A stretch of DNA of 64,000 nucleotides from Blastocatellia bacterium (lineage in GTDB: Bacteria; Acidobacteriota; Blastocatellia; HR10; J050). The DNA lies in the NCBI GenBank assembly GCA_026985075.1, contig JALSQX010000067.1, positions 186,001-250,000 on the forward strand, read 5' to 3'. The position numbers and the translations under genes were made by a program. The notes under the pieces are model-generated. The model was not told the DNA's origin. It worked only from the letters and a program-made list of their open reading frames with translations, and did no database searches. Of the stretch, positions 32,512 through 55,341 are shown in pieces (position 1 is the stretch's first letter; every line of letters starts with the position of its first letter).

Positions 32512-32589
32512 GCTGGCGTAGCTCAGTTGGTGTAGAGCGCCTGACTGTGGATCAGGAGGTCCCCGGTTCAAGTCCGGGCGCCAGTACCA
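32512..32589 (+). tRNA. tRNA-His (anticodon GTG)
   Basis: The cloverleaf folds fully. Acceptor 32512-32518 pairs with 32579-32585 (first pair G-U). The D arm is GCTC/GAGC, the anticodon stem is CCTGA/TCAGG with loop CTGTGGA (anticodon GTG), and the T arm is CCCGG/CCGGG with loop TTCAAGT. CCA is encoded at 32587-32589. Position 73 is A and the base before position 1 is T, so the usual tRNA-His G-1:C73 pair is not encoded. Confidence 0.93.
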
Positions 32590-48588: not shown

Positions 48589-50256
48589 TCATCCGGTCAC
48601 GGCGCCCCGAGAAGCCGATGAGACGAGCCGGGCATACTTGGCCATGACGCCCGTCGTGTACCGGGGAGGCGGAGGCGTCCATCGATCCAATCGAGCCTTC
48701 AATTCCTCGTCTGGGATCTCCACGTCGAGCCGGCGCTGCGGGATGTCGATGACAATGATATCCCCATCGCGGAGCGCGGCGATCGGTCCTCCAACAGCCG
48801 CCTCGGGAGCCACATGACCGACCATCAATCCATGGGTTGCACCGGAGAAGCGCCCATCGGTGAGAAGAGCGACCGATGGACCGAGTCCCGCGCCCTGAAT
48901 CGCTCCGGTCACGGCCAACATTTCGCGCATTCCCGGGCCCCCTTTCGGTCCCTCATATCGAATGACGACGACATCCTCTGGTTTCACATCTCCTCGCTGG
49001 ACGGCGGCGAAGGCATCCTCTTCACAATCGAACACCCGGGCCGGGCCTCGATGATACTGCTTCCGTTTGCCGGCGATTTTCAGCACGCTTCCTTCGGGTG
49101 CCAAGTTCCCTTTCAATATGACCAATCCACCGTTGGGCGAGAGGGGATCCGAGAGTGGACGGATGACCGTTTGTCCCGGCGTCTCCTCTGCAGCCCGCGC
49201 TTCCTCACCAATGGTCCGGCCGGTCACCGTCAGGGCCTCCTCGCTGAGGAGTCCCGCTTCTAACAACCGCCGAGCGACGACGCCGACTCCGCCGGCTCGA
49301 TAGACATCGTGGGCCACATAGCGTCCCCAGGGCTTGAGATCGGCCAGCAGCGGTGTACGAGCGCTGATCGTATCGAAATCGTCAATGCTCAACTCCACGC
49401 CCGCTTCGTGGGCCACGGCCAACAGATGCAATACGGCATTAGTCGATCCCCCGGTGGCCGCTACGGCGGCGATGGCATTCTCAATCGCCGGCCGGGTGAG
49501 AATGTGATGGGGCCGGATATCGCGACGCAACAGTTCCATCACCAGTTGCCCACACTGGAAGGCGACCTCTTCCTTACGTGGATCGGTCGCCGGAACCATG
49601 GCGCTCCCCATGGGCGAAATACCCATCATCTCGAATGCGGTGGCCATGGTGTTGGCCGTGAACTGGCCCCCACAGGCGCCCGCTCCCGGGCAGGCGGCGC
49701 TCTCCAATTGCCGCAATTCGCTCTCGGTCATCTGCCCGGCAGCACAGGCACCCACGGCTTCGAACACGTCCTGAATAGTCACATCTCGCCCCTGGAACTC
49801 CCCGGGGAGAATCGATCCGCCATAGAGCATCAGTCCCGGAATATCCAATCGAGCCAGCGCCATCACCGAGCCGGGGATCGTCTTGTCGCAGCCCGAAATG
49901 GTCACCAGAGCATCGAACAGATGGCCTCGAGCGACCAGCTCGATGGAATCAGCGACCACTTCTCGACTGATGAGCGAGGCTTTCATGCCTTCGGTGCCCA
50001 TGGCCACCCCATCAGAGATGGAGATAGTGTTGTACTCGATGGGCGTCCCACCGGCAGCGCGCACGCCTTCCTTGACTTTTTCGGCCAGCCGCCGATGATG
50101 ATAGTTACACGGCATCACTTCGATCCAGCAATGAGCTACGCCCACCAGCGGGCGCGCCAGATCCTCATCGGTGAATCCAACCGCTTTGAGCATCGCTCGC
50201 GCCGGAGCTCGGCTGGGTCCTTCGGTGAGCACATGACTGCGATGTTTCAATTCCAT
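48589..50256 (-). CDS. ilvD: Dihydroxy-acid dehydratase
   Basis: Fe-S enzyme that dehydrates dihydroxy-acids to the keto-acids of valine and isoleucine synthesis. It has 555 residues from the ATG at 50256, which has GGAGGGAG upstream. Cluster cysteines C50, C123 (SGCDKTIPG) and C195 ([17 protein letters not shown]) are in place. It is the last gene of the ilvB-ilvN-ilvC-ilvD operon. Confidence 0.96.
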
Positions 50257-50420
50257 ATCTCCCTCCACCTCTACTGCCCCCTTCTGCGAGGCCCGAACGT
50301 CGCCTCCGGACATTCAAGGCGTCTTCGAGATCCCATGGTCCATACTCCTCTGGCGAACCGGCATTGTCTGAAGCGGCCGCCGAGGGACTCGACGATCGTC
50401 GGTTAGGACGCGCCCAGAAA

Positions 50421-51485
50421 TCAATCTCCTGATCCTGGGGAAGCCACCGCCGTCTCTTTCGTCGGGGTCTCAGTCTTCTGTTCCGACGATCGTCCCTCCT
50501 TGAGCCATCCCATCATCTTCCGCAACCGTCGTCCCACCTCCTCGATAGGGTGCTCCGCCTCCTGGCGGCGATAGGCATTGAAGCTCGGTCGCCCGGCCTG
50601 ATTCTCCAGAATCCACTCGCGAGCGAATGTTCCATTTTGAATGTCTGTGAGCAGTTTTTGCATCTCCGCTTTCACGCGATCATCGATTACCCGCGGGCCG
50701 CGCGAATAGTCCCCATACTCGGCCGTATCGCTGATCGAATAGCGCATATAACTCAAGCCGCCCTCATAGATCAAATCGACGATGAGCTTGAGCTCGTGCA
50801 GGCACTCAAAGTAGGCGACCTCGGGCTGATAGCCGGCGTTGACCAGCGTTTCGAATCCGGCCTTGATGAGGGCCGACACCCCTCCACAGAGGACGGCTTG
50901 CTCCCCGAAGAGATCGCTCTCGGTCTCCTCCCGGAAGGTGGTCTCGATGACGCCCGCTCGCGTACATCCGATACCCCGAGCATAGGCTAAAGCGGTCGCT
51001 TTGGCTTGACCGGTGGCATCCTGGTGGACGGCCAGCAAAGCGGGTACGCCGACTCCTTCGACGAACAGTTCTCGCATGCGGTGACCCGGTGCTTTGGGCG
51101 CAATCATGGAGACATCCACGTCCGACGGAGGGACGATCTGGTTGTAGTGAATGTTGAATCCATGAGCGAACATCAACGTTTTGCCCGAGGCGAGGTGATC
51201 TCTGATGCTCGTCTCATAGACCTGACGCTGCACCGGGTCGGGCACCAGCATCATGATGACGTGCGCTCGAGCCGCCGCCTCGTTCACCGGAGCCACGGTC
51301 AACCCTTCAGCCTCTGCCTTCGCCCACGACCTGCTCCCCGGATATAATCCCACGATGACCTGAACGCCGCTATCACGAAGGTTCAGCGCGTGAGCATGTC
51401 CTTGACTCCCGTAGCCAATGATGGCGACGGTCTCACCTTGAAGTCGCGAAAGATCTGCATCGCTGTCATAGTAGACATGAGCCAT
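50421..51485 (-). CDS. ilvC: Ketol-acid reductoisomerase
   Basis: Isomerises and reduces acetolactate-type acids with NADPH, second step of the pathway. It has 354 residues (class I). The N-terminal nucleotide site is [21 protein letters not shown]. The knotted C-terminal domain includes [19 protein letters not shown] with metal-binding acidic residues, and [16 protein letters not shown]. It lies 91 bases after ilvN and 164 before ilvD. Confidence 0.97.
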
Positions 51486-51576: not shown

Positions 51577-52092
51577 TCACGATGATCCCCCCGTGGCCGT
51601 TACCCGATGAGGGCTGGTCAGTCCCCGAGCCATCGCTACGGCACCCGTTCGCGCCACTTCCTCAATCTCGTATTTTCGGAAAAGCTCGATGAACGCCTCG
51701 ATTTTTTCTGTATCGCCGGTAGCCTCGAAGATATACGAGTCCGACCCCACATCGATGACGCGCGCCCGGAAGAGCTCGGCTTCTTTGAGGATCTCCATCC
51801 GCTGTGACGGATCGACGCGCACTTTGAGCAAAACCAGTTCCCGCTCCACCGTCTTTCCGTCAGAAAGATTGGCCACGCTGATGACGTCGATCATCTTGTC
51901 CAATAACTTCAGAAGATGCGCTACCACTCGAGGTTCGAGATTGACGACCATCGTGATATGTGACAGCGTCGGATCATCGGTCTTGGCCACGCTCAGGCTT
52001 TCAATGTTATATCCTCGAGCGCTGAACAATCCGGCAATCCGCGCCAATACCCCGGATTTGTTCTCCACCAGCAACGAAATCGTCTGATTCAT
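51577..52092 (-). CDS. ilvN: Acetolactate synthase small (regulatory) subunit
   Basis: Regulatory partner of IlvB that confers feedback sensitivity. It has 171 residues. The N-terminal ACT domain (residues 4-75) carries the [28 protein letters not shown] motif with the valine-site glycine. A C-terminal ALS_ss_C domain with VDPSQRMEI and [14 protein letters not shown]-type segments follows. Its start is seven bases after the ilvB stop, so the subunits are made together. The symbol ilvH is equally used for this subunit. Confidence 0.95.
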
Positions 52093-52099
52093 CTCGCCA

Positions 52100-53830
52100 T
52101 TATGTCAACTGAAAGGTTTTGGGCGACTTGTACTGTCCCTCGATCATCTCCTTGATGGATGCCCCGGGCGGGACCATCGGATAGACGTTCTCTTCGGGCG
52201 CCACATGGACATCCAGCACGACCGGGCCGGGAATAGAGAACGCCTCTTTGATCGTATCGGCCAGGGCGGCGGGCCGGGTGACGCGATAGCCGACGATACC
52301 GAACGCCTCGGCGAGCCGCGCGAAATCGGGCGAGAGACTCAAATCGACTGCCGAATAGCGACCATTGAAGAAGATCTGCTGCCATTGGCGCACCATGCCC
52401 AGATAGGCGTTATTCACGATGACGACCTTGATGGGCAGCCGATGCTCCGCCACCGTCGCCAATTCCTGCATGGTCATCTGGAAGCCGCCGTCTCCGACGA
52501 TCGCCACCACCAACTGATCGGGCCGCGCCATCTGGGCCCCAATGGCCGCCGGAAACCCAAATCCCATGGCTCCCAGACCGCTCGATGAGAGCCACGTTCG
52601 CGGTCGCTTGAAGCGATAAAACTGTGCCGCCCACATCTGATGCTGCCCCACATCCACGCTGATGATGGCATCGCCCTGGGTGACCCGCGCGATCTCTTCG
52701 ATCAATCGCTGCGGTTTGATGACCTCGTCATCATCATCGTAACAGAGGGGATGTTCCCGCTTCCACTGCTCAATCTGGTCGAGCCACGCCCGGCGCTCAC
52801 GATGCCACTCTGGCGGCATCTCGGCTCGCATCTTGACGAGGTGGGGTTTCAATTGCTGGAGCACGAGTTTGGCGTCACCGAGGATGGGGAGATCGACGGG
52901 AACGTTCTTGTTAATCTCCGAAGGGTCGATTTCCACATGAATCTTCTTGGCGTCGGCGGCGAATTCCTCCAACTTGCCGGTCACCCGATCATCGAATCGA
53001 ACGCCAATGGCGAATAACAGATCAGCGTGAGAAATCGCCGTATTGGCATACCAGGTGCCGTGCATGCCCAACATGCCCAGTGACAAACGGTGTACGGTGG
53101 GGAAACCACCGATGCCCATCAGCGTCGTCGTCACCGGGATCTCGGCCAACTCGGCTACTTCCAGCAACTCAGCCGACGCCCCCGAGGTGATGATGCCACC
53201 CCCAGCATATACCACCGGTCGTTGGGCTTCCATGAGGGCCCGCGCCGCGGCTTCGATCTGGTGCGGATCAGCCTCCACGACCGGTCGATACCCCCGGAGT
53301 GAGACCGTCTCCGGATACGAGAATTCCGCATCGGAGAGCAATAAATCCTTGGGCATATCCACGAGGACCGGCCCGGGGCGGCCCGTCGAAGCAATATAAA
53401 ATGCCTCCTTGATGATTCGCGGGAGATCCTCGGTCCGCCGCACCAGATAGTTATGCTTGGTGCATGGCCGAGTGATGCCGACAATGTCGGCCTCCTGAAA
53501 GGCGTCGTTCCCAATGAGATGGGTGGGGACATTCCCGGTGAAGACGACCAGCGGCACCGAGTCCATGTGCGCGGTGACGATCCCCGTGACTAAATTGGTC
53601 GCCCCCGGACCCGAGGTGGCCAAACAGACGCCTACCTTCCCCGATGCCCGCGCGTATCCATCTGCCGCGTGCGCCGCCGCCTGCTCGTGACGCATCAACA
53701 CGTGCTTGATGGGCGCATCGTAGAGTTGATCGTAAATCGACAGCACGACGCCCCCGGGAATTCCAAAGATGACCTCCACGTTCTCTCTCAACAAACACTC
53801 GACGAAAATCTGTGCTCCTTTCATCCTCAT
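52100..53830 (-). CDS. ilvB: Acetolactate synthase large (catalytic) subunit
   Basis: Thiamine-diphosphate and FAD enzyme that makes acetolactate or acetohydroxybutyrate from pyruvate. It has 576 residues from the ATG at 53830, which matches family N-termini ([24 protein letters not shown]) and has GGGAG nearby. ATGs at 53845 or a start at 53875 are alternatives. Catalytic E49 is in [15 protein letters not shown]. The ThDP motif is [12 protein letters not shown] with a downstream [12 protein letters not shown]. The leader upstream contains a complete attenuator. Confidence 0.95.
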
Positions 53831-53884
53831 CTCGCTGTCTCCCATCGCGAATTCCCCGCTCTCCCACACACTCAATCAATAATG

Positions 53885-53924
53885 AAAAAGGCCATTCTCC
53901 GGTTCAGCGGATCATGGCCTTTTT
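53885..53924 (-). terminator. Attenuator terminator hairpin in the ilvB leader
   Basis: On the - strand AAAAAGGCCAT (53924-53914) pairs with ATGGCCTTTTT (53895-53885), an 11-bp perfect stem. An inner TCCG/CGGA stem lies within the loop. The 3' arm ends in five T, followed by CATT. It lies 55 bases before the ilvB start. Confidence 0.9.
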
Positions 53925-53959
53925 CACCCTACTCGTCTTGGCAACCGGCCATCATCCGC
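53907..53959 (-). promoter_or_regulatory. Antiterminator pairing in the ilvB leader
   Basis: On the - strand GCGGATGATGGCC (53959-53947) can pair with GGCCATGATCCGC (53919-53907) in 12 of 13 positions. The second element contains most of the 5' arm of the terminator, so the two structures exclude each other. The first element overlaps the stop codon of the leader peptide. Confidence 0.85.
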
Positions 53960-54134
53960 TGCCCTCGATGACGAGACCAATTACGCCCAAATTGTCGCCT
54001 AGGGCAGTCCAAGAGAGGCGGCGTACAGTTAGGCTTGAGCCAACCAACGAAGCGGATCGAGGCCCGAAGATACCCCACTCCTTCCTCCGCGCCCGATGCG
54101 TTATCTGTCCTCTTTGTGCTCTTTCTCGTGCCAC
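53952..54134 (-). CDS. ilv leader peptide (attenuation)
   Basis: A 60-codon frame from a GTG at 54134 ends at TGA 53954-53952, just before the antiterminator. Its last 16 residues read LGDNLGVIGLVIEGSG: seven of twelve consecutive codons (CTA, TTG, GTA, ATT, CTC, GTC, ATC) specify Leu, Val or Ile. The start is uncertain. The GTG lies about five bases after the predicted transcription start, so leaderless translation is possible. A TTG at 54047 would give 31 residues. Ribosome stalling at these codons would leave the antiterminator free to form. Confidence 0.7.
   Translation of the reverse strand: MARERAQRGQITHRARRKEWGIFGPRSASLVGSSLTVRRLSWTALGDNLGVIGLVIEGSG
53959..54007 (-). promoter_or_regulatory. 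Pause hairpin (1:2) of the ilv attenuator
   Basis: On the - strand CTGCCCT (54007-54001) pairs with AGGGCAG (53965-53959), within the leader-peptide coding region. The second arm touches the antiterminator segment, as expected for a protector/pause stem. Confidence 0.65.
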
Positions 54135-54145
54135 CTGAGGTCAGA

Positions 54146-54174
54146 AGTGTATCAACTTCTTCCGAATTTGTAAA
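54146..54174 (-). promoter_or_regulatory. Sigma-70 promoter for the ilv operon
   Basis: On the - strand TTTACA (54174-54169), 17-base spacer, TACACT (54151-54146). The - strand DNA just upstream (54175-54220) is AT-rich, like an UP element. Transcription would start near 54139. Confidence 0.7.
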
Positions 54175-54252: not shown

Positions 54253-55341
54253 TCAATGGGTGAGTCGAATATCACCGCTCACTGTTTTGATGTAGATGGT
54301 GGGGGGACCACCTTGACCGATGGTCCCATGAGCTGATTTGCTGCCGAAACCGCGTTTGAGCAGCAGGTGGATATCGCCACTGATGTCGATGTCCCCTGTT
54401 GTGGTGAACACGCTCACATCGGCATTGAAGGGGGCGAGACAGCGAATGGCGATGTCGCCGCTCACCGTCTCGAACGTGGTGTCCTGCTCGTCAGCCCCCT
54501 CGAGGAGTTCCGCCTGGACATCGCCGCTGACCGTTTGGACCTTGACCGGACCTTGAATGCGTCCGAGCACCACATCGCCGTTCACGGTTTGAACGGAGAC
54601 CTTCCCTTCAACACCCTCAATATGCACGTCGCCACGAACGACGCTGATCCGATCGATGTTGACCTGGCGAGGCAATTTAATCTCCTGGTAGTCGATGTGC
54701 GCCCGGGCGCCGGAAGGCCGTCGCGTTCGAATGATGACGGTGTTCGGGGTAGAGGTATCGACCTCGAGAGTCACCTGCGCCCTCTCGCGAGTCGAGCCCA
54801 GGTGCTTTCTCGCCTTGATGGAGACGAGATCCTTATCCCATGTGGAGATCTTGACGTCGCCGATGTCGGCAAAGAGGGCGAATGTCCCGCCGGAGGTGAG
54901 TGGGATCGTTCGGGTGATCGCGTCTGGCACGGTGGAGGTCTCGTCCAGACCGCCAATGGTGATCTTCTTGCCATCTTTGATGATTTCGATCCCTTCAGCG
55001 CCTTCGGTAATCCGAATGCCTTTCAGTTGGCTCACTCCTCGATACAACCCGTATCCAATGAAACTGAAGGCGAGCAGAAGGCAACCGAGCACACATCCCA
55101 ACACCCAGGGCCAGCGGCGCTTTCGCACGGACTCGGTGGCCACTTCCATGGATGGCGATTCGGGAGGGATATAAGCCGGTTGTGTGGAGCCCGTGGGCCG
55201 CCAGCGCGTCGGAGTAGTTGCGGGAAACGGCTGGGTCCCGGATTCTTCGGAGGAGAGTGCGCCCGTCGCCGTGCCACAGAAACGGCAGAACCGCATTCCG
55301 GGTAAGATCTCAGCACCGCATTGCTTGCAATGATTGGCCAT
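54253..55341 (-). CDS. Zinc-ribbon membrane protein with DUF4097-type beta domain
   Basis: 362 residues. An N-terminal zinc ribbon (CKQCGAEILPGMRFCRFCG, residues 5-23) is followed by a Pro/Thr-rich linker. One transmembrane helix is at about 77-98 (WVLGCVLGCLLLAFSFIGYGLY). The rest is a repetitive beta region with recurring VSGDV/VNGDV units (residues about 160-362), as in DUF4097 proteins that form a right-handed beta-helix. The role is unknown; the domain is probably outside the membrane with the ribbon in the cytoplasm. It is transcribed towards the ilv leader. Confidence 0.8.
   Translation of the reverse strand: MANHCKQCGAEILPGMRFCRFCGTATGALSSEESGTQPFPATTPTRWRPTGSTQPAYIPPESPSMEVATESVRKRRWPWVLGCVLGCLLLAFSFIGYGLYRGVSQLKGIRITEGAEGIEIIKDGKKITIGGLDETSTVPDAITRTIPLTSGGTFALFADIGDVKISTWDKDLVSIKARKHLGSTRERAQVTLEVDTSTPNTVIIRTRRPSGARAHIDYQEIKLPRQVNIDRISVVRGDVHIEGVEGKVSVQTVNGDVVLGRIQGPVKVQTVSGDVQAELLEGADEQDTTFETVSGDIAIRCLAPFNADVSVFTTTGDIDISGDIHLLLKRGFGSKSAHGTIGQGGPPTIYIKTVSGDIRLTH

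Follow-up and report, generated by a model that had tools for sequence, protein, structure and literature searches.

Comparison with known ilv leaders

In E. coli and Corynebacterium, ilv operons are classical examples of attenuation. The E. coli ilvB (ivbL), ilvGMEDA and leu leaders carry a short frame rich in cognate codons, a stop codon beside an antiterminator arm, mutually exclusive 2:3 and 3:4 hairpins and a U-tract, and they stand before a biosynthetic operon. The Corynebacterium ilvB-II motif (ilvBNC leader) is an ilvB attenuator with a terminator and an upstream frame (uORF) rich in branched-chain amino acid (BCAA) codons (PMC10272879, PMC11857589). Translation of the Corynebacterium leader peptide does not involve a ribosome binding site, judging by the title of a paper that PMC10272879 cites (Morbach et al. 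2000). The ilvB-OMG and Leptospira ilvB motifs also lie before ilvB, contain uORFs rich in BCAA/threonine codons and are proposed attenuators (PMC10272879, PMC8632094). PMC10272879 places ilvB-OMG in "various bacterial phyla", which may include Acidobacteriota. That paper argues that attenuation is common for ilvB, including the Leptospira motifs and ilvB-OMG of several phyla, and it mentions a ppGpp riboswitch class. Before the Firmicutes case reported in 2010, knowledge of leader peptides was confined to Proteobacteria and Actinobacteria, and in that year almost no predicted acidobacterial attenuator had an assigned function (PMC2965389). In the open-access literature we found no paper joining ilvB, leader peptide, attenuation and Acidobacteria.

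The ilvB locus analysed here, from the class Blastocatellia, shares with the E. coli leaders every feature listed above. No sequence relation to them was found, however, and the acidobacterial leader differs in its probably near-leaderless GTG/ATG start, in the enrichment of Ile and Val but not Leu codons and in having ilvB, N, C and D behind one attenuator. The near-leaderless start is reminiscent of the Corynebacterium leader as characterized in that title, whereas the phylum, the RNA sequence and the peptide are different. Unlike the ilvB-OMG and Leptospira motifs, the acidobacterial loci are matched by no Rfam 15 family. As far as checked, the type of attenuation is known and the lineage, the regulon and the details are new. 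An earlier note on this DNA had proposed that E. coli ilv/leu attenuator logic is present in an apparent acidobacterium. Recurrence before ilvB in the class and covariation support the proposal, and together they provide strong sequence evidence that textbook translation-sensing attenuation also operates in Acidobacteriota.

The ilvBNCD leader

The window (the whole 64,000-nt stretch analysed) contains on the minus strand ilvB (acetolactate synthase large subunit, 52100-53845; NCBIfam TIGR00118, 860 bits), ilvN (acetolactate synthase small subunit, 51577-52092; NCBIfam NF008864), ilvC (ketol-acid reductoisomerase, 50421-51485; NCBIfam NF004017) and ilvD (dihydroxy-acid dehydratase, 48589-50313; NCBIfam NF002068). 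They are preceded on the same strand by a promoter, an open frame and the arms GCGGATGATGGCC...GGCCATGATCCGCTG...ATGGCCTTTTT, in this order. A tRNA-His (GTG) at 32512-32589 (plus strand) was the sole RNA gene recognised in the window. The promoter, TTTACA-17-TACACT at 54174-54146, was found where the earlier note had put it (-35 TTTACA at 54174-54169, -10 TACACT at 54151-54146, spacer of 17).

The leader frame (54134-53952, minus strand; VARERAQ...LGDNLGVIGLVIEGSG) has a GTG start, 60 codons and the stop TGA at 53954-53952. Its control codons TTG GGC GTA ATT GGT CTC GTC ATC (Leu, Val, Ile, Leu, Val, Ile) occupy 53990-53967. Seven of the last 20 codons specify Ile, Leu or Val (shuffle p = 0.027), which is modest evidence alone and a weaker run than in most relatives. 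The frame contains no ATG; GTG 54134, 11 nt after the -10, is its sole ATG or GTG codon. In the same-genus genome G001 a GTG stands at the same position. An ATG start lies 9 nt after the best -10 in G002 (same family) and 10 nt after it in G006 (same order). All four frames are open (60, 60, 56 and 60 codons in the window's genome G000, G001, G002 and G006), and no Shine-Dalgarno sequence was found at any of the four starts. From the 9 to 11 nt spacing we infer a near-leaderless leader mRNA for the order, with GTG 54134 probably the best start of the window's leader. Elsewhere in the class, leader ATG starts are farther from the promoter. The internal TTG 53990 was rejected as a start, G001 having GTA there. 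Offsetting 2-nt indels between the G000 and G001 leaders preserve the frame. Their last 39 codons differ at 19 nonsynonymous and 2 synonymous positions, a comparison that gives no support for a conserved peptide or for coding. Leader peptides are usually not conserved.

The RNA arms agree with the pairings that had been proposed. The pause stem lies at 54007-54001 (CTGCCCT, region 1) and 53965-53959 (AGGGCAG), minus strand; by eye, the sister species alone retains it, with the help of G-U pairs. The antiterminator has 12 of 13 pairs between GCGGATGATGGCC (53959-53947) and GGCCATGATCCGC (53919-53907) and can be extended to 14 of 15 pairs between CAGCGGATGATGGCC (region 2, 53961-53947) and GGCCATGATCCGCTG (region 3, 53919-53905), with -26.8 kcal/mol. 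The window's antiterminator arm beats all 100 shuffles (p < 0.01). The leader stop lies inside region 2, as it does in the antiterminator first arm of most relatives. Region 3 is shared, as had been noted, and pairs either with region 2 or with region 4 in an intrinsic terminator (53924-53885, minus strand) of 11 pairs between AAAAAGGCCAT (53924-53914) and ATGGCCTTTTT (53895-53885). The five terminal Ts also pair with five As, so that the free U-tract is short. The whole leader RNA is not unusually stable (z = -1.0) and its folding energy is uninformative. Rfam gave weak matches to mir-7359 and, on the opposite strand, to Thr_leader (E 0.04-0.37), which were rejected as chance matches on the palindrome.

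Bacterial ribosome footprint sizes are known, and these general sizes were used to place the covered nucleotides (from the stop to about 53941). With a ribosome at the stop, the terminator (-28.8 kcal/mol) is the sole predicted option. With a ribosome stalled at ATT 53981, region 2 is free and the antiterminator (-30.4) is predicted to form while region 4 has yet to be transcribed. After completion of region 4 the terminator beats the antiterminator in free energy; the switch must therefore be kinetic, as in known attenuators.

Recurrence of the attenuator architecture

Relatives were searched with a detector blind to these sequences, which required a terminator and a frame of at least 12 codons ending 12 to 62 nt before its left arm. 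A call was positive if at least 7 of the last 20 codons of the detected frame specified Ile, Leu or Val. Of the 52 ilvB upstream regions from the class, at least 26 were called positive, compared with 2 of 92 reverse-complement controls. Within the window, the present locus was the only positive among 89 upstream regions; none was found before other long ORFs. We judge the attenuator to be real from this recurrence in relatives, the window leader alone being only suggestive. Four more class genomes (G041, G057, G088 and G117) show the same design by eye, below the detector thresholds.

G001, G002 and G006, the nearest genomes, keep GCGGATGATGG...GGCCATGATCC...ATGGCCTTTTT, with leaders ending in RVIRLAIRGSG, GLAVIIVGLINSG and LLLIIAISIVIVPGPGSG, respectively. 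G000 and G001 have the same regions 2, 3 and 4, amid flanking leader sequence that has diverged. Additional class members with a copy ahead of ilvB were picked up by a covariance model built on five sequences. Examples of leader ends are VISVIVIVAVAIIPAQLADWTT (G018), LSVITLLIPVIIVVVVLLIKSG (G010), VVPVAVVVVIAISGLIVASPTG (G013) and SVIIISINFNVIILGG (G062). Among 40 sampled ilvB regions from other classes of the phylum, 4 look positive (G321 and G410 of family f70, G351 of f44 and G476 of f86), and three of these four pass the stricter detector described above. Since most sampled regions outside the class are negative, the device is either scattered there or too diverged for the detector. When 84,980 species were scanned for the exact pattern GGATGATGGC..GGCCATGATCC, 33 places matched, and the one in the sister genome J050 alone lies before ilvB. 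The exact sequence is narrow in distribution and the architecture is wide.

Codon content and covariation

In 29 accepted leaders, Ile codons were 3.4-fold, Val codons 3.0-fold and Leu codons 1.07-fold their shuffled expectation in the leader ends. The leaders had been picked on Ile, Leu and Val jointly, so the absolute enrichment is inflated by selection and the contrast of Ile and Val with Leu is the informative part. The earlier note had read the frame as ending in Leu/Val/Ile codons. The stop and these codons are in place in the window, and BCAA codons are conserved as a class among relatives; the enrichment, however, extends to Ile and Val but not to Leu. The signal sensed is thus most likely Ile/Val rather than Leu/Val/Ile.

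Compensatory changes, which the earlier note had suggested looking for, are present in both competing helices. We aligned three arms (first antiterminator arm, shared arm and terminator second arm) from 30 leaders. The register was set manually, a procedure biased towards pairing. In this alignment, 90.8% of terminator cells are paired and 9 of 12 pairs have changed on both sides (37 such cells against a shuffled mean of 12.2); for the antiterminator, 85.3% of cells are paired and 8 of 12 pairs have changed on both sides (25 cells against 8.8). None of 500 shuffles reached either count, and pairing in both helices dropped sharply when the partner was slid by 1 to 3 columns. Because the hand register favours pairing, we also relied on a separate shuffle test, in which the antiterminator arm had p of 0.02 or less in 18 of the 26 detector-positive class leaders. 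In the outgroup family f70 the arms have changed together (CCCCGCC/GGCGGGG vs CCTCGCC/GGCGAGG). The antiterminator search, whose range ends 14 nt before the stop codon, missed five f8 genomes; by eye, these have an arm CTCGCCG farther upstream in the frame.

The promoter and an element common to leuA

Promoters of this quality are expected by chance at 0.9 per 2 kb, yet this one is kept throughout the order. It aligns in G001 and G002, and it directly precedes ilvB in relatives that have no attenuator. A 21-nt element, AAAAACAATCAATTTTACAAA (54187-54167, minus strand), overlaps the -35, is common to the leuA promoter and is a probable operator. The form AAAAAnAATnAATTTTACAAA has exactly two perfect sites genome-wide, at ilvB and at leuA (G000:C105:248073-248093, plus strand, locus L216), and one more with 2 mismatches. 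A weaker third site is found in G000:C33 and G001:C415. In the order relatives examined, the best element sites are likewise those of ilvB and leuA, and leuA is always adjoined by a divergent LysR-type gene (named from its sequence by eye). No attenuator was found at leuA of the window's genome. With an element common to leuA in its promoter, and leuA beside a divergent LysR-type gene, ilvB is probably under two-layered control. Initiation is probably set by a LysR-type protein acting at this element, the identity of the binding protein being a guess from gene neighbourhood.

The two layers are arranged differently in some relatives. In G006 the conserved ilvB promoter element sits 3' of the attenuator (L071 2200-2660, minus strand), and a second transcript from there would by-pass the attenuator. 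Genus g4, in the family of G006, has the promoter element before ilvB and no attenuator there. A weak model match (E 0.0017) in L157 (G107:C325:5332-5429, minus strand) has a GGATGACGAC/GTCGTCATCC hairpin and precedes a LysR-type gene, which by eye looks like the one adjoining leuA.

Proposed mechanism and alternatives

From the sequence evidence above, ilvBNCD is very probably governed by ribosome-mediated transcription attenuation that responds to charged tRNA-Ile and tRNA-Val. What the sequence itself shows is the set of elements, how they are conserved and covary, the bias in codons and the tie to Ile/Val genes; where transcription starts, that translation initiates at GTG, that the ribosome stalls and that termination is regulated are inferred. 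Transcription would begin about 6 to 8 nt after the -10, and a ribosome would initiate at GTG 54134, almost at the RNA 5' end. When Ile or Val is scarce, the ribosome would stall on GTA-ATT or GTC-ATC (53984-53967), leaving region 2 (CAGCGGATGATGGCC) free to pair with region 3 once that is made. With regions 2 and 3 paired, the terminator would not form and RNA polymerase would continue into ilvB. When Ile and Val are plentiful, the ribosome would reach TGA (53954-53952) and its footprint, extending to about 53941, would cover region 2. Region 3 would then pair with region 4 and transcription would end near 53885. The element common to leuA, probably bound by a LysR-type protein, would set initiation as a second layer.

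That second layer might be the dominant one, with initiation control by the LysR-type regulator on the ilvB/leuA element coming first and the attenuator secondary. Throughout the genomes of the order that were examined, the 21-nt element marks both ilvB and leuA and a divergent LysR gene adjoins leuA; genus g4 keeps the element while dispensing with the ilvB attenuator. Such dominance would still allow attenuation, however, and the attenuator is conserved much more widely (in the class) than the element (in the order); judged from sequence, we regard this ranking of the layers as rather unlikely, though it is compatible with attenuation. The loss in one genus of the order also bears on a different reading, in which the window's leader is a decaying remnant with little or no translation, whose terminator just lowers ilvB expression constitutively. 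The absence of ATG from the window leader (the sister species has ATG ACG CGC AGG ATG where the window has ATA) and its short codon run, described above, would fit decay. We nevertheless find it improbable, given that the 60-codon frame is open in both species despite the offsetting indels, that the GTG is placed relative to the -10 like the ATG of G002 and G006, and that regions 2, 3 and 4 are unchanged between G000 and G001 while the flanking leader diverges.

The terminator could also belong to a metabolite- or tRNA-sensing RNA (T-box, ppGpp riboswitch or other), the frame being accidental. T-boxes and ppGpp riboswitches do control ilv genes in other organisms. At this locus, however, the T-box and ppGpp riboswitch covariance models gave no match, and 20 related loci yielded no Rfam match at gathering score and no meaningful weak match. 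A sensing RNA would also leave unexplained why Ile and Val are enriched and why the stop lies within region 2, and we regard it as highly improbable. It is hardly conceivable that the hairpin is a plain terminator of the upstream gene (54253-55341): it does lie 3' of that gene on the same strand, but a promoter and about 330 nt intervene, and in G002 and G006 the attenuator adjoins ilvB and not that gene.

Copies before other genes

The same hairpin family occurs, in diverged copies, before citramalate synthase in five genomes of the order, with very Ile-rich leaders (LTLVIIIQPASGSG, LAIIIRLIILPASGSG and LTIIIGGLIILPGSGSG). The enzyme was identified with TIGR00977 (763 bits for the G006 protein). 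Citramalate synthase is isoleucine-specific. Genus g4, with its attenuator lost at ilvB, has one at cimA. The family, again diverged, is also found before gltB in G000, G001, G002, G003 and G029; in G003, a citramalate synthase gene comes after gltB.

These copies would fit an ancestral class-wide Ile/Val attenuation regulon (ilvB operon, citramalate synthase and glutamate synthase), with near-leaderless leaders in one order, a LysR-type layer common to leuA and attenuators that were relocated among the genes of one pathway (with loss at ilvB and retention or gain at cimA). We give this wider picture an even chance. Through attenuation of the kind proposed here, dozens of acidobacterial attenuators would be assigned a function, with Ile/Val as the signal and a mechanism open to test. 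Within the class, attenuators before one gene would form an evolutionary series (intact, diverged, by-passed by a downstream promoter or lost), and regulatory sequence logic would be supplied for organisms with few known genetic tools.

Individual copies vary in their leaders. In the window's genome, attenuator-like hairpins with a frame ending in VTIMISAMTPGGGDG lie directly before gltB (L003 1430-1538; G000:C83:94767-94875, plus strand), and the gltB leader of G002 has a high content of Thr and Ile (TTAITKVKAITTAVRDG). A further copy of the device (L145; G000:C67:183700-183809, minus strand), about 2.2 kb beyond the left edge of the window, has the leader LLGLIISLRLWRGSG. It precedes a cupin-like gene of 124 residues, as it does in G001, and a similar leader is found in G002:C56 before a related stretch.
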